In this document: piece by piece, positions 412 to 9,395 of the stretch
Layout: every line of letters begins with the position of its first letter
How positions within the stretch are numbered: position 1 is the first letter of the stretch
Assembly: GCA_006227015.1 (NCBI GenBank)
Contig: SBGI01000261.1
Coordinates: 1-12,642, forward strand
DNA: 12,642 bases
Direction of reading: 5' to 3'
Origin: Gammaproteobacteria bacterium
GTDB lineage: Bacteria > Pseudomonadota > Gammaproteobacteria > Pseudomonadales > Porticoccaceae
Position numbers and translations under genes: made by a program
The notes under the pieces: generated by a model
What the model saw: the letters and a program-made list of their open reading frames with translations, nothing else
Told to the model about the DNA's origin: nothing
Database searches by the model: none

Positions 412-900
412 ATGGAAAAAATGTTCGAGAACACCATGTATGCCACCCGTTGGTTACTGGCGCCAATCTACTTTGGCCTGAGCTTTGCGTTGCTGGCCCT
501 GGGTGTGAAATTTTTTGCCGAGGTGATCCACACATTACCCATGATTCTCAGTATGTCTGAGATGGACCTGATCCTGGTGGTACTGTCGCTGGTCGATATT
601 TCGCTGGTGGGCGGTCTGATTGTGATGGTGATGTTTTCCGGCTATGAGAACTTTGTTTCGCAACTGGACCTGGATGAATCCAATGACAAATTGAGCTGGC
701 TGGGAAAGCTGGACACCAGTTCACTGAAAAACAAGGTGGCCGCTTCCATTGTGGCTATTTCCTCCATTCATCTGTTGAAGATATTTATGAATGCCCATGA
801 AATAGCAAATGACAAAATACTCTGGTACGTGGTGCTGCATATGACGTTTGTTGTGTCTGCATTTGTGATGGGTTTGCTGGACACCATGACGCGTAAATAG
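412..900 (+). CDS. yqhA: YqhA family (UPF0114) inner-membrane protein
   Basis: Closely resembles E. coli YqhA over its whole length (about 162 versus 164 residues), including the opening stretch around [15 protein letters not shown], the [12 protein letters not shown] segment, the [13 protein letters not shown] loop and the [17 protein letters not shown] segment. Four hydrophobic stretches (about residues 13-35, 52-73, 108-126 and 137-157) predict a multi-pass inner-membrane protein. Its biochemical role is not established in the family. Two ATG codons occur in tandem at 409 and 412; I chose 412 because AAGGA (400-404) is better spaced for it and it matches the family's start. It appears monocistronic: a terminator lies before it and a 233-nt gap after it. 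Confidence 0.93.
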
Positions 901-949
901 ATCCTGTGTTTGGTTTGTTTCATAGGCCAAGTTGAAGCATTCAGTGGCT

Positions 950-1001
950 GCCCGGCTTTAACTCCTGTGAAGTCGGGCATTGCCCCATTTTGAGGCAAAA
1001 T
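950..1001 (+). other. Two consecutive hairpins downstream of yqhA
   Basis: The first is GCCCGGCTT (950-958) against AAGTCGGGC (970-978): nine pairs counting one G-U, with an 11-nt loop. The second is the exact dyad ATTTTG-AGG-CAAAAT (987-1001). No T-run follows the first, so it is not a canonical intrinsic terminator, though it may mark the yqhA 3' end. The second is short and AT-rich and could be a protein site. The rest of the 901-1085 gap holds nothing else I can support. Confidence 0.4.
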
Positions 1002-1085
1002 TTGCACGTATAAGGCATCAAAGATAAGTTGTGTCAGACAAATTTCTTATATTTCAGCTTGTTAAATATTGGCACTGAGTTTGCT

Positions 1086-1122
1086 AGGTTAATTCTTGTA
1101 TTCTTGATACAACAATTAACCT
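1086..1122. promoter_or_regulatory. 37-bp inverted repeat, candidate NsrR operator
   Basis: AGGTTAATT-c-TTGTAT (1086-1101) is mirrored by ATACAA-c-AATTAACCT (1107-1122) about a 5-nt centre at 1104; 15 of the 16 arm positions pair, with a single C/C mismatch. The central 15 bp, TGTATTCTTGATACA (1097-1111), matches the gammaproteobacterial NsrR consensus as I recall it (TGYATTT-N-AAATRCA) at 11 of 14 informative positions with correct spacing. It ends 11 nt before the globin start and abuts its GAGG ribosome site (1123-1126). An nsrR-like gene ends the operon, which fits autoregulation. In RNA the same repeat would fold into a hairpin beside the ribosome site, so a post-transcriptional role is an alternative. 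Confidence 0.6.
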
Positions 1123-1133
1123 GAGGTGTTCCA

Positions 1134-1490
1134 ATGAGCTTGTATGAAAAACTGGGTGGCGACGCTGCCGTTGATGCCGCCGTCGATATTTTTTACCGGA
1201 AAGTCCTGCTGGATGATCGAATCAACCAGTATTTTGATGGTGTTGATATGGCTGGCCAGTCGCAAAAGCAAAAGGCCTTTCTGACCATGGTATTAGGTGG
1301 ACCGAATAACTACACCGGTAAGGATATGCGTGAAGGTCACAAGCATCTGACCGGATTGAATGATAGCCACGTTGATGCGGTGATCGAGCTGCTGGGTGAA
1401 ACACTCAAAGAGCTGGGTGTTGGCGACGAAGATATCGGTGAAGTGGCGGCACTGGCCAACAGTGTTCGCGATGACGTATTGAATCGCTGA
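1134..1490 (+). CDS. glbN: Group 1 truncated haemoglobin (trHbN)
   Basis: A 118-residue haem protein aligning end to end with Synechocystis GlbN. The proximal haem ligand is His69 (F8, in MREGHKHL). The distal side has Tyr21 (B10), Gln42 (E7) and Gln46 (E11), the polar network associated with tight O2 binding and NO dioxygenation in this globin group. GG pairs at residues 8-9 and 55-56 are the usual trHb glycine motifs. Lys45 stands where Synechocystis GlbN has its sixth-ligand His46, and the C-terminal His that cross-links haem there is absent, so a five-coordinate, ligand-ready haem is inferred. GAGG (1123-1126) serves the ATG. An 8-nt gap to the reductase and a downstream NsrR-like gene point to NO detoxification, with the reductase re-reducing the haem. 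Confidence 0.93.
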   Translation: MSLYEKLGGDAAVDAAVDIFYRKVLLDDRINQYFDGVDMAGQSQKQKAFLTMVLGGPNNYTGKDMREGHKHLTGLNDSHVDAVIELLGETLKELGVGDEDIGEVAALANSVRDDVLNR

Positions 1491-1498
1491 TATCGCTA

Positions 1499-2458
1499 AT
1501 GGCAGTTGTTCGTTACAGTGACCGGACCATTGAGGTTCCGGAAGGTGAGACGCTTTTATCCGCTCTGGAAGGGGTGGATATTGCTGTCCCTAACAGCTGC
1601 CGCGCGGGCCTTTGTCATTCCTGCATGATGGTGGCCCACGATAGCCCGATTCCTGAGCAGGCTCAGGCCGGGCTTTCGGCGCAACAGATTGCCCAAAATT
1701 ACTTCCTTGCTTGCCAGTGCTATCCCGAATCCGATATGGATGTATCTCTGGGCGATGGCGAGCGCCGCTATGAAGCGGTAATGACGCACAAGGAGCCTCT
1801 CAACCAAGGGGTGCTCAGAGTGCGATTTGAAACCGATATGCCCTGGTTTGCCGGTCAGTACACCAGTGTGTGGAAAAATTCGTCAGAAGGGCGCAGTTTT
1901 TCCATCGCCAGCCTGCCCGATGAAGGACATATAGAGTTACACGTGCGCCGGCGTTCCAATGGCGTCATCAGTAGTTGGCTGGAACATGAGCTGCAGGAGG
2001 GTGAACGCTGCCATTTGAGTGCCGCCCGCGGCCATTGTTTCTATAACCCCGGGGCGGAGGAGCAAACACTGTTGTTGGCTGGCACTGGTACAGGGTTGGC
2101 ACCCTTATACGGTGTGGCTCGGCAGGCTCTGGCACACGAGCACCAGGGCGATATTCATCTGTATGCCGCTTCCGGCAGCCCTGACCAATTATATTTAGTG
2201 GATGAGCTGGTTGAGTTGTCCGACCGTCATGAAAACTTTTACTATCACCGAGTCGTAAAGCGGGAAGCAGAACAATTCCCGCAACTGCATCAAGGCGACC
2301 TTGTCGATATTGTCAGCCGTCGTCACAGCAACCTGAAACAACACCGCGTTTACCTATGCGGTGCTCCTGGTATGGTTAAGAAGTTACAGAAGCTGAGCTT
2401 CCTGCAGGGGGCGGCGATTGCCGATATTCTTGCCGATGCCTTTGAGGCACCTGCCTAG
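1499..2458 (+). CDS. [2Fe-2S] ferredoxin / FAD / NAD(P)H oxidoreductase
   Basis: A 319-residue electron-transfer flavoprotein in three parts. Residues 1-90 are a plant-type ferredoxin with C34-x4-C39-x2-C42 and C72 (C74 nearby). Residues about 92-185 are a flavin-binding barrel with R132-S-F-S135 and G155-VISSW. Residues about 188-315 are the nucleotide domain with G195-T-G-T-G199-L-A-P202 and a C287-GAPG motif near the end. The ferredoxin-first order is that of methane monooxygenase, toluene or benzoate dioxygenase reductases. No oxygenase lies nearby; the partner in reach is the globin 8 nt upstream, so its likely job is passing electrons from NAD(P)H to that haem. There is no strong ribosome site before the ATG, suggesting translational coupling. 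The start is fixed by the ferredoxin fold beginning at once. Confidence 0.88.
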   Translation: MAVVRYSDRTIEVPEGETLLSALEGVDIAVPNSCRAGLCHSCMMVAHDSPIPEQAQAGLSAQQIAQNYFLACQCYPESDMDVSLGDGERRYEAVMTHKEPLNQGVLRVRFETDMPWFAGQYTSVWKNSSEGRSFSIASLPDEGHIELHVRRRSNGVISSWLEHELQEGERCHLSAARGHCFYNPGAEEQTLLLAGTGTGLAPLYGVARQALAHEHQGDIHLYAASGSPDQLYLVDELVELSDRHENFYYHRVVKREAEQFPQLHQGDLVDIVSRRHSNLKQHRVYLCGAPGMVKKLQKLSFLQGAAIADILADAFEAPA

Positions 2459-2460
2459 CT

Positions 2461-2892
2461 ATGCAGTTAACGCGATTCACCGATTATGGTCTGAGGGTGC
2501 TGATTCATCTCAGTAGTCAGCCAGCAGGTGTTCGAGTCGGCCTGGATTATCTGGCAGAGCATTTCAACATGAACCGCCACCATCTCTATAAGGTAAGCCA
2601 AAGGCTGTCTCAGCTAGGGTGGACCTCATCTGCTCGTGGTAAAAATGGTGGCATTGTTCTGGAACCGACAACTCGCCAGAAGAATCTGCTGGAAATTATC
2701 AGTGAACTGGAGGAGACCATGCAGCCGATTGACTGCAAGGGCATCCAGTGCCCAATTGCCAACCGTTGTAAGCTACAGGGCGTCCTTGGGCAGGCGGCGC
2801 AGGCCTTTAAAAATGTCTTGGCCCAGTATCAACTGGAAGACCTGCAACAACATGACTTGCAGGTGATCCAAAAAGTTTTCGATGTGACTTGA
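2461..2892 (+). CDS. nsrR: NsrR-type Rrf2 family NO-sensing repressor
   Basis: A 143-residue Rrf2 regulator. It opens MQLTRFTDYGLRVL as E. coli NsrR nearly does, has a winged helix-turn-helix (about residues 25-50, wing RGKNGGI at 59-65), and carries C92-x4-C97-x5-C103 for an Fe-S cluster. The x4 spacing matches NsrR; IscR has x5. Asp8, a cluster ligand in Streptomyces NsrR, is also present. In known members NO destroys the cluster and releases DNA. The gene starts 2 nt after the reductase stop with no independent promoter visible, so it should be the third gene of the globin operon and repress it through the inverted repeat at 1086-1122. It ends 3 nt from a convergent gene. Confidence 0.88.
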   Translation: MQLTRFTDYGLRVLIHLSSQPAGVRVGLDYLAEHFNMNRHHLYKVSQRLSQLGWTSSARGKNGGIVLEPTTRQKNLLEIISELEETMQPIDCKGIQCPIANRCKLQGVLGQAAQAFKNVLAQYQLEDLQQHDLQVIQKVFDVT

Positions 2893-2895
2893 TGC

Positions 2896-3411
2896 TCATG
2901 GGTTCATAGCATTGATCTGGTTGAGGTACTGAATGGCAGGCTGATAGCCAGCCTGTGCTGACCGTTTGAACCAGTCCGTGCCTTTGGTTTCGTCTTTCGC
3001 CACACCCATGCCGTTGTAATAGAGGCCTCCCAGAGCATACATGGCTGCCGGGTGGCCCACACTGGCGGCTTTTTCGTACCAGGGAACGGCTTTTGAATAA
3101 TCTTTTACAACACCTTCGCCGCTTTGATAAGCCCAACCGGTTTCAAACATGCCGCCCGGGTGACCTTGCTCGGCCGACTTCAGATATAACTCAAAAGCTG
3201 TCTTGAGGTCTTTTTCAGTTCCCCATCCTTCCCTGTAGAGAATGGCCAGCGCAAACTGGGCATCGGCATCACCGGTTTTTGCCAGTTCACTGAGGATTGC
3301 GAAGCCTTTATCCAGCTCGCCACCTCGGACTGCCTGGTAACCTTCTTCTAAAGTGGCCGCCATAACGGAAACGGAAAGTAGGATGCCTGCCAGGGCGCTT
3401 AAATATTTCAC
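2896..3411 (-). CDS. Secreted Sel1-repeat (TPR-like) protein
   Basis: A 171-residue protein with a classic signal peptide (residues 1-18/19, cleavage after VMA or VMAA), hence periplasmic. Three uninterrupted 36-residue Sel1-like repeats follow at about 48-83, 84-119 and 120-155, each with the A-x-(F/Y)-x-L-(A/G)-x2-Y-x2-G-x-G-V pattern and an SA-x-x-G or AA-x-x-G end. Such solenoids act as protein-binding scaffolds; no catalytic domain is attached and the partner is unknown. The start is GTG at 3411, chosen because GAGGAG lies 6-8 nt upstream and the signal peptide begins there. It is convergent with nsrR, the stops 3 nt apart with no terminator between. A 163-nt gap separates it from the gene upstream on this strand, so it is probably transcribed alone. 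Confidence 0.88.
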   Translation of the reverse strand: MKYLSALAGILLSVSVMAATLEEGYQAVRGGELDKGFAILSELAKTGDADAQFALAILYREGWGTEKDLKTAFELYLKSAEQGHPGGMFETGWAYQSGEGVVKDYSKAVPWYEKAASVGHPAAMYALGGLYYNGMGVAKDETKGTDWFKRSAQAGYQPAIQYLNQINAMNP

Positions 3412-3574
3412 AGATACTCCTCAATGAGTGATTAACAGGGTGCTTGGACCCAATAGGTTGCCGCGGGTGCAGATCATACAATGGATTATCCACAGATCGT
3501 TTGATTCATTGCCCTGCCATGAGTTCATTCGGTATTGCCAGATGTCTTGATGTGCTTGCAGCTGGTGACGGCGG

Positions 3575-6603: not shown

Positions 6604-7791
6604 ATGTCCTTATCCATGGACCAACAGCTGCAACTGCGGCTGGCACAGCGCCGGGCGGATAATCTCTACCGACAGCGACACCTTCTACAGTCCGCCCAGA
6701 ACAGTATTGTTCAGGTCGATGGCAAGACTTGTGTGGCCTTCTGTAGTAATGATTACCTGGGTTTGGCTAGTCATCCCGCAGTTATCGACAGTCTGCGTCG
6801 TGGGGTGGAAACCTACGGGGTTGGCAGCGGTGCATCGCACCTGATTTACGGTCATTCACAGGAGCATCACGCTCTGGAAGAGGAATTAGCGGCCTTTACC
6901 GGCCGGCCTCGCGCACTGCTGTTCTCCACGGGTTACATGGCCAACCTGGGTACCATTCGCGCCCTGGTAGACAAGGGGGACCATGTGTTTGAAGACCGCC
7001 TCAACCACGCCTCCCTGCTCGATGGCGGTCTTGCCAGCAATGCCCGCTGTCAGCGTTTTAAGCACCGGGATGTCAGTGATCTTGCCCGACGCCTGGCTAA
7101 AACCACTGAAGGACGCAAGCTAGTGGTTACCGACGGGGTTTTCAGTATGGACGGCGATGTTGCCCCCTTGCCTGAAATGGCCGAGATCTGCCGCCAGTAC
7201 AACGGCTGGTTAATGGTGGATGATGCCCACGGTTTCGGCGTACTGGGAGAGCACGGTGGTGGCCTGACTGAACAGTATCAGCTCGATGTGGAGGAGCTGC
7301 CCATCCTGATGGGCACACTGGGTAAGGGTTTCGGTACGTTCGGCGCCTTTGTGGCCGGTTCCGAAGCTTTGATCGAAACGCTGATTCAATACGCACGTAC
7401 CTATATTTACACCACGGCGCTACCGCCCTCGGTGGCTGCGGCCACCCGGATCAGTTTGAAAATATTGCGTCGCGAGACTTGGCGCCGGGAAAAACTGCAA
7501 AGTCTTATCGCGCGCTTTCGACAGGGAATTGCCGATCTCGGTCTGGAGCTGATGGATTCATCGACGCCAATTCAGCCTGTGCTACTCAACGATGACGCGC
7601 TATGTCATAACGTGGGTGAAAGGCTTCGTGAAAAGGGCTTTCTGGTGGGCGCGATTCGCCCACCCACAGTGCCGCAGGGTAGTGCGCGCCTTAGGGTAAC
7701 CCTCTGTGCCGAACATACCGAGGAACAGGTCGATGCGCTTGTGGACGCTATCGACACCAGTCTTCGTGAATTGCAGAGCGACGGCCTGTGA
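6604..7791 (+). CDS. bioF: 8-amino-7-oxononanoate synthase BioF
   Basis: A PLP enzyme condensing pimeloyl-ACP (or -CoA) with L-alanine to give 7-keto-8-aminopelargonate. Its 395 residues carry the alpha-oxoamine synthase signatures: [11 protein letters not shown] near the N-terminus, [12 protein letters not shown], the [13 protein letters not shown] substrate-site stretch, [11 protein letters not shown], the D206-D-A-H209 PLP-ring contacts, and the Schiff-base lysine K241 in TLGKGFG. Length is typical (E. coli 384). GGGAG 5 nt before ATG 6604 is a strong ribosome site. The stop overlaps the next gene's GTG by 4 nt (GTGA), so BioF and BioHC translation are coupled. Confidence 0.97.
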
Positions 7792-9395
7792 TAGCGGTAC
7801 CCCTGACACACATCTCGGACGGATCGCTCGCTGTTTATGAGCATCCGTGTACCGACATCCCAGTCCAAGCAGAGCCATTGGTGTTGCTGCACGGGTGGGG
7901 TAGTGATAGCCGGATTTGGCAGGAAGCCCTGCCGTTGCTGACACCGCACTTTCACTTGCTACTGGTGGATTTGCCGGGTTTTGGTGACAGCCCTGTGCTT
8001 GATGATAATGATGGCCTGGACGATTTCCTCCAGGCGCTACTGGTAGTCTTGCCCGAACGGTGCAGTCTGGTGGGCTGGTCTCTGGGTGGCATGCTGGCGA
8101 CAGCCTTGGCCAGCCGTTACCCGGAGCGTATCGCTCAACTGGTGACCATTGCCAGCAATCCCTCCTTTGTTCAGACAAAGGATTGGGTCACCGCTATGCC
8201 TGGGAAAGTCTTTGCTGACTTCAGTGAATCATATCGGCAACAACCGGCACTCTGCCTGAAACGTTTCCAGGGGTTGCAGAGTCGTGGTGATGGACGCGAA
8301 AGGGATCTGGTCAAGCAATTGCGTGCTTTTTCCCGGTTACCTACTCCCTCCCAGGGAGCCGGCTGGCAGAGAGGTCTGGAGTTATTACAGGAACTGGATA
8401 ACCGTTCTGCACTGGCCGATTTGTCCGTCCCCGGCCTGCATATATTCGGCGACTCGGACCAGCTGGTTCCTGTGGCCACCGCCAAGGCCCTGCAGAATCT
8501 AAACCCCGCCCAGCAGGTGGTGGTACTCGATGAGACAGCTCATGTTCCGTTACTCAGTTGCCCTCAGCGACTGGTGGAGACCATTACCAACTATCTTCAG
8601 GCTGACCGCTACCGGCTGGATAAAGTACACATCGCAAAATCCTTCAGCCGGGCGGCAAACAGCTATGACAGCGTGGCACGACTGCAGCGCCAGGTGGGTC
8701 AACAATTACTGGAACAGTTGTCACCGGGGCTGGATTCGGCAAATGTTGTGGATCTGGGTTGTGGTACCGGTTATTTCACCACTCGGCTGGCTGAACGGTT
8801 TATGCCTGCCGCACTGAAAGGTATAGATCTGGCACAGGGCATGCTGGACTATGCTCGTCAGCATTACGGTGATTGCGCCACCTGGGTTTGTGATGATGCG
8901 GAGTCGCTTGCTTTACCAGATCGCAGTGTGGATCTGATTTTTTCCAATCTGGCCTTCCAGTGGTGTGAGCGGTTGCCTCAGTTGGCCGAGGAACTGGCGC
9001 GAGTCTTGAAGCCCGGAGGTGTAGTGGCCTTTACCTCACTGGGGGAGAAAACCCTGTACGAGTTACGCCAAGCTTGGGCAGCGGTAGACGGTTATGTTCA
9101 CGTCAATCGTTTTCTACCGGCACAGCAATGGCAGGAGGTCTTTGTCCAGGCAGGTTTCCACTTCAATTATTTTGCTGTGGAGCCAGAAGTGTTGCAGTAC
9201 CGGGATTTGCGTCACCTGACTTCTGAGCTGAAAGGGCTGGGGGCGCATAACGTCAATCAGGGGCGCAACCGCAAAATGACCGGGCGCGATCCTATTCGTC
9301 GTTTGATGAATGCTTACGAACAGTTCCGGGATGACGATGGCCAATTGCCGGCCACCTGGGAAGTGATTTATGGAGTCGCAAGGAAAGATGGCTAA
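7788..9395 (+). CDS. bioHC: BioH-BioC fusion: pimeloyl-ACP esterase + malonyl-ACP methyltransferase
   Basis: One uninterrupted 535-residue frame encodes two enzymes. Residues 1-271 are BioH, an alpha/beta hydrolase: oxyanion LHGWG (34-38), nucleophile Ser98 in GWSLGG, acid Asp224 in GDSDQLVP, base His252 in ETAHVPLL. It cleaves the methyl ester of pimeloyl-ACP. A linker of about ten residues (272-282) leads to BioC, about 278-535: [14 protein letters not shown] motif [11 protein letters not shown] (320-330), acidic GIDLAQGM, the BioC-typical SNLAFQWC (386-393), HVNRFLP and [13 protein letters not shown]. It methylates malonyl-ACP to prime pimelate synthesis. Separate bioH and bioC lie in this same order in Pseudomonas, so loss of a stop could have fused them. 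No ATG or GTG with a ribosome site occurs at the junction, so separate BioC synthesis is unlikely. The start is GTG, overlapping bioF by 4 nt. Confidence 0.95.

Follow-up and report, generated by a model that had tools for sequence, protein, structure and literature searches.

A truncated globin, a [2Fe-2S] flavoreductase, and an NsrR-like regulator in one predicted operon: a probable NO-inducible NO dioxygenase on separate chains

Gene content of the locus

We analyzed a stretch of 12,642 nucleotides (the window, to which coordinates refer unless a locus is named). Its nearest named relatives are Porticoccus, and the source bacterium is probably marine. Three genes follow one another on the forward strand: a group 1 truncated haemoglobin of 118 amino acids (1134–1490, +), a [2Fe-2S]-FAD-NAD(P)H reductase of 319 amino acids (1499–2458, +), and an NsrR-like Rrf2 regulator of 143 amino acids (2461–2892, +). 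Each was identified as an open reading frame and by Pfam, along with solved relatives and a residue alignment for the globin; NCBIfam, a PDB match, and a cysteine alignment for the reductase; and NCBIfam, Asp8, and three cysteines for the regulator. The gaps are 8 nt between globin and reductase and 2 nt between reductase and Rrf2 gene, so that genes, strand, and spacing are as an earlier sequence-only reading of this DNA had given them. That reading began its finding at position 1086, which is where an inverted repeat opens that its text does not mention (1086–1122, unstranded; 16-nt arms around 5 nt, 94% complementary). At the center of the repeat, 21 nt 5′ of the globin start codon, lies a putative NsrR-type operator core (1096–1112, +).

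No sigma-70-like promoter passed a scan of positions 850–3450, and no Rfam family matched the window at gathering scores. A single terminator-like site was found, inside the reductase gene, versus 2.6 in shuffled sequences. Positions 409–900, 5′ of the operator, encode a TIGR00645/UPF0114 protein of unknown function. Positions 7788–9395 encode an alpha/beta hydrolase fused to a methyltransferase; because it is flanked by what we take to be bioF- and bioD-like genes, we read it as presumably a BioH-BioC-like fusion.

The globin scores 70 bits against Pfam Bac_globin (cut-off 21), and the solved structures nearest to it are those of a group 1 truncated haemoglobin and of cyanoglobins. Alignment identifies Tyr21, Gln42, Lys45, Gln46, and His69 at the positions that we take to be B10, E7, E10, E11, and F8, which bears out both the group 1 assignment and the Tyr-B10/Gln-E7/Gln-E11 distal set read earlier from the sequence alone. 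The same residues recur in 110 globins linked to a reductase (Tyr B10 in 110, Gln E7 in 109, Lys E10 in 108, Gln E11 in 110, and His F8 in 110). Lys45 precedes His69 by 24 residues, as Lys53 precedes His77 in the Chlamydomonas globin THB1, for which we know of no linked reductase gene. THB1 is, like the window globin, a group 1 truncated globin, though eukaryotic, and it dioxygenates NO in vitro with a lysine as distal ligand (PMC4304232). A conserved E10 lysine in the linked globin group is not among the published points that we found in excerpts of the open-licence PMC literature.

The reductase contains Fer2, FAD_binding_6, and NAD_binding_1 domains, each above its Pfam cut-off, and scores 169.5 versus 338 for its best NCBIfam model, that is, below the cut-off. 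It has the three-domain BenC/GcoB architecture, in which an N-terminal plant-type [2Fe-2S] domain is followed by FAD and NAD domains. The cluster ligands are Cys 34, 39, 42, and 72, all four of which are kept in 110 of 110 reductases. GcoB is its best sequence match in the PDB and also the best fold match of the reductase from a relative, L057. The earlier description of an oxygenase-type reductase with a [2Fe-2S] domain therefore holds.

The Rrf2 protein scores 98.8 bits in Pfam (cut-off 30). Its best NCBIfam model is PRK11014 NsrR, ahead of RirA and IscR, at 102 bits against a cut-off of 182, so it remains below the curated threshold. It has Asp8, which we take to correspond to a cluster ligand of NsrR, and the cysteines Cys92-X4-Cys97-X5-Cys103. 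In 68 aligned Rrf2 sequences, which include a duplicate (L081, identical to L003), Asp8 is present in 68, Cys92 in 67, Cys97 in 68, and Cys103 in 67. The cysteine spacing is X7-X5 in 48 of these and the window's X4-X5 in 13, while six have another spacing and one (L004) has none.

Recurrence and co-occurrence of globin and reductase

We scanned a genome collection with a reductase alignment and inspected the best 80 of 458 loci; since these are ordered by similarity to the query, they do not amount to a census. Of these 80, 69 have a truncated globin gene 5′ of the reductase in the same orientation (L072, cut at a contig end, is scored as lacking one). The gap between profile ends is at most 100 nt in 56 of the 69 and more than 200 nt in five. 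Globin, reductase, and an adjacent Rrf2 gene occur together in 49 of the best 80, with the Rrf2 gene downstream in 26, divergent upstream in 22, and upstream on the same strand in one. An upstream Rrf2 gene was scored as adjacent only where a globin was found, so its restriction to globin loci is partly by construction; L020 has an Rrf2 gene and no counted globin. The trios come from Gamma-, Beta-, and Zetaproteobacteria, Acidobacteriota, Myxococcota, Hydrogenedentota, and one Planctomycetota, that is, five phyla, with taxonomy taken from record titles; many are metagenome bins, and single assignments may be wrong.

A second set, largely independent of these 80 loci, consisted of 276 genomes sampled evenly across the class to which Hahella G002 belongs, a genome that supplied sequences to both search alignments. 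With a threshold of 250 bits, it yielded 48 reductase matches, all at least 252 bits (the next full-length match has 205 and one partial match 221). A truncated globin adjoins 41 of the 48, a count that includes the duplicate L081, which was left out of the 110-row residue counts above and the distance correlation below. Confinement of the adjacency to the window genome, which the original reading had set as a refutation, is thus ruled out. Among 274 genomes drawn evenly from the window's own order (that of Porticoccus G001), 12 of 27 reductase matches of at least 250 bits adjoin a globin and 15 do not; the pair is rarer and looser there than in the class sample.

Co-occurrence exceeds expectation in both samples, with kinship ignored throughout. 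A group 1 truncated globin is present in 42 of the 44 reductase genomes of the class sample (8.9 expected) and in 19 of 23 in the order sample (3.8 expected). When genomes with an adjacent pair are removed from the latter, 7 of 11 still have both (1.4 expected, P 6e-5). Globin and reductase distances are also correlated (r 0.48, versus 0.16 as the largest of 999 permutations). From the side of the globin, 41 of 74 class-sample globins of at least 98 bits adjoin a reductase; because 33 do not, adjacency by itself is no ground for taking the reductase as electron donor to all such globins.

Not every reductase has a globin neighbor. In a tree of 127 reductases, which omits L081 and L072 and labels L125 and L127 as without adjacent globin despite their fused ones (below), the label "globin adjacent" needs 9 changes versus 16.3 in shuffles. 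The 16-member clade that holds the window reductase is evenly divided, eight with an adjacent globin and eight without. Other relatives adjoin a Rieske oxygenase gene (L009) or a hemerythrin gene (L128), and in L011 (1768–3415) and L068 (5279–6948) a homologue stands almost gapless behind miaE, the gene of a tRNA hydroxylase, and might supply MiaE with electrons. Given these neighbors and the even split of the clade, the reductase family is probably lent to several oxygen-using enzymes. One member of the tree, L037, is titled as a Bordetella parapertussis MAG and groups with Acidobacteriota; it is perhaps a misnamed bin or contig.

We also considered mutual exclusion of the pair and Hmp as proof of function, and rejected it. 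Full-length Hmp matches occur in 21 genomes of the class sample and 81 of the order sample. None of the 41 pair genomes in the class sample has Hmp (3.1 expected, P 0.03, kinship ignored), but the exclusion is not general: 3 of 12 pair genomes in the order sample do (3.5 expected).

Natural fusions of reductase and globin

Two of the seven class-sample reductases without an adjacent globin, in genomes G182 and G280, continue in frame into a truncated globin, so that 43 of the 48 are beside or fused to one. The frames, of 530 and 616 amino acids, contain Fer2, FAD_binding_6, NAD_binding_1, and Bac_globin, all above the Pfam cut-offs. The true start of the 616-residue frame is probably later, since its TTG start lies well 5′ of the reductase. 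The fused globins keep Tyr B10, Lys E10, Gln E11, and His F8, and have Leu (L125) or Ser (L127) at E7. Both were found by the genome searches; a protein search gave no protein with Bac_globin plus NAD_binding_1 among 120 listed of 3147 matches. In the excerpts of open-licence PMC articles retrieved, by searches none of which was aimed at the fusion alone, no reductase-globin fusion was found described. We regard these fusions as the best individual indication that electrons pass between reductase and globin.

Putative NsrR-type operator

When the window is searched for WTGYAT-N5-ATRCAW with at most one mismatch, a single site emerges, the palindrome center TTGTATTCTTGATACAA, which fits at 12 of 12 positions. 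The published NsrR consensus is gATGyAT-N5-ATrCATc (PMC1274295). Against the strict pattern ATGYAT-N5-ATRCAT, the window site has the same spacing and one differing position in each six-base half-site, a 10/12 fit that is also reached by 19 of 443 control upstream regions. As the looser pattern, with A or T at two positions, was chosen after the window's site had been seen, we give both counts. The whole inverted repeat is kept in Porticoccus L001, while in L002 only the core and right arm are recognizable, so we assign the outer arms no separate function.

Sites were counted over 260 bases 5′ of each globin; as controls we used the regions that precede other genes of the best 80 loci. A strict site of at least 11/12 precedes 37 of 69 globins from the best 80 of 458 loci and 24 of 40 in the class set, versus 4 of 443 controls; for the looser site, the counts are 41 of 69, 27 of 40, and 9 of 443 (5 of 155 for controls with G+C under 50%). 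With an adjacent Rrf2 gene, the looser site is present at this level in 37 of 49 (best 80 of 458) and 13 of 16 (class set); in pairs without one, it is present in 4 of 20 and 14 of 24, respectively. Seven unlinked globin loci were inspected, and two have it. The class set of these counts leaves out L081, which is included in the 111 upstream regions of a separate tally. Altogether, the site counts are good evidence for NsrR-type control of the globin-reductase group and fair evidence for such control of the window's own predicted operon.

Relation to known systems

The comparisons in this section draw on excerpts of open-licence PMC articles. In Legionella, a glbN-ferredoxin-reductase operon was predicted in 2005 by Rodionov et al. 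as the sole NsrR target, and the product of glbN-lpg2536 was suggested to oxidize NO like Hmp (PMC1274295). Gardner in 2012 interpreted this operon as pointing to the reductase as the likely donor (PMC3820574). The sequence-only reading could not tell whether such a system had been described; in these excerpts it has, as a prediction for one species. Because that prediction and Gardner's donor reading precede our analysis, the window is a further case of a predicted kind. As in the window, the L. pneumophila genes comprise a cyanoglobin-type truncated globin adjoining a ferredoxin reductase as a predicted NsrR target; they are described as two genes, and the window adds the regulator as a third, a comparison made by description only. 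In the excerpts retrieved, we did not find the trio described beyond the Legionella prediction. The genes glbN and nsrR are reported in Hydrogenedentota and Sumerlaeota genomes in an excerpt that does not mention linkage (PMC10866078), and the excerpts of PMC11904497 and PMC4720485 contain nothing on a linked reductase. What we add is breadth, operator statistics, conserved residues, and fusions, none of which we met in the literature found.

Hmp is one chain with a 3/3 globin and no [2Fe-2S] domain, and Bjgb of Bradyrhizobium japonicum is likewise a 3/3 globin and not a truncated one. Hmp shares globin, FAD, and NAD modules with the window pair, which is encoded by separate genes, and is a predicted NsrR target in many bacteria (PMC1274295). 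Bjgb and Flp resemble the window in that a single-domain globin and a separate FAD/NAD(P)H protein are encoded in one operon; their mutants are sensitive to NO donors, and Flp is proposed to feed Bjgb (PMC4724949). Unlike the window reductase, Flp is described with FAD and NAD(P)H domains only and is also proposed to serve a nitrate reductase, and control is by NasS-NasT (PMC4724949). GcoA-GcoB, like the window, pairs a three-domain [2Fe-2S]-FAD-NADH reductase with a separate heme oxygenase, but electrons from GcoB go to a P450 (PMC6021390).

Proposed function

Based on these results, we propose that the trio is probably an NO-inducible NO dioxygenase whose globin and reductase are separate chains. 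As long as NO is absent, the Rrf2 regulator, with its Fe-S cluster in place, would bind around 1096–1112 and repress the predicted operon including its own gene. NO would damage the cluster and lift repression, and globin, reductase, and new repressor would be made. The FAD of the reductase would accept two electrons from NAD(P)H, which would then travel one at a time over the [2Fe-2S] cluster and reduce the ferric globin heme; the [2Fe-2S] domain would serve the globin heme as that of GcoB serves the P450 heme. Ferrous globin would then bind O2, convert NO to nitrate, and revert to the ferric form. The sequence shows the genes, domains, ligands, operator-like site, recurrence, co-occurrence, and fusions in relatives; from these we infer repression, NO sensing, the electron path, the choice between NADH and NADPH, and the dioxygenase chemistry.

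The sequence-only reading had described a dedicated, self-regulated NO dioxygenase system. Linkage, co-occurrence, and fusion of globin and reductase genes give the module strong comparative support, and NsrR-type sites also argue for this interpretation, but "dedicated" is too strong for the reductase because 8 of 16 in its own clade and 15 of 27 in the order sample have no adjacent globin. We also ran AlphaFold2 on joined chains from L057, where globin plus reductase reached a pTM of 0.83 versus 0.72 for reductase plus Rrf2, from 27 and 9 joined alignment rows and with unequal linkers. The difference hints at a defined placement of globin and reductase in the models, and we did not count it as evidence.

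Among other readings, the best survivor, which we nonetheless consider unlikely, is that the NO-induced pair, its globin supplied by the Fe-S reductase, acts reductively on nitrite, hydroxylamine, or, where O2 is lacking, NO, and yields products that do less harm. NsrR-type control would suit any nitrogen-oxide stress, truncated globins have reductive activity with nitrite and hydroxylamine, and tandem or triple globins occur in loci of Mariprofundaceae, which are low-oxygen iron oxidizers. The Tyr/Gln/Gln distal set, however, accompanies tight O2 binding. The algal relative THB1, with its distal lysine, also dioxygenates NO in vitro (PMC4304232). We find it quite improbable that the reductase is a general oxygenase donor that merely shares an NO-responsive operon, with the globin reduced by something else: the relatives beside miaE, Rieske oxygenase, and hemerythrin genes and the half of the clade without adjacent globin fit this, whereas co-occurrence far above chance and fusions in two genomes speak against it. 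Least credible is an Rrf2 protein that senses Fe-S status or oxidative stress and a globin kept reduced for O2 handling or peroxide defense, for although the Rrf2 score is under the NsrR cut-off, the window site is a consensus variant, and a Roseobacter truncated globin is reported, in the excerpt available, with peroxidase activity (PMC4319818), NsrR-type sites recur across the group, Asp8 and the three-cysteine set are present, and NsrR outscores RirA and IscR.

We lean slightly towards the broader view that bacteria have, besides Hmp, a second widespread means of removing NO aerobically, namely a truncated globin supplied by a three-domain [2Fe-2S] flavoreductase. This system would span at least five phyla and in many cases be subject to NsrR-type control; its globin is sometimes doubled, and certain lineages have the whole of it on one chain. 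On this view, the flavoreductase would be the physiological reductase for a substantial share of bacterial group 1 truncated globins. The conserved reductase neighbor, with its clear cofactor chain, makes this directly testable in Hahella ganghwensis (L004) and Myxococcus dinghuensis (L075), and the natural fusions offer a one-chain protein for testing alongside.

Other globin arrangements

Several loci have further combinations of these domains. In Gallionella locus L032 (2610–3824), a 404-residue frame contains Fer2, a stretch that aligns to the FAD domain of the reductase, and a globin of the same kind, with no NAD domain; it lies upstream of an ordinary globin-reductase pair. This frame, the two full fusions (L125, 1865–3457; L127, 1960–3810), and a free globin of L138 have a common C-terminal piece with two Cys-X2-Cys motifs, which perhaps binds metal.

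Tandem truncated globins precede the reductase in L042, L055, L066 (three globins), L071, L074, L078, L079, and L080, and in L065, which is Neptuniibacter; these loci are mostly from Mariprofundaceae and relatives. Double truncated globins in one frame occur in L028 (2823–3653), L058 (5166–5990), L129, and L132, and proteins of about 400 amino acids (P0248 and others) may hold repeated globins, as they score high while a quarter of the query is aligned. Finally, the truncated globin of L130 (1326–2456) is preceded by a hydrophobic N terminus and a charged region, an N-terminal part that, by eye, we take to resemble YhcB/ZapG.
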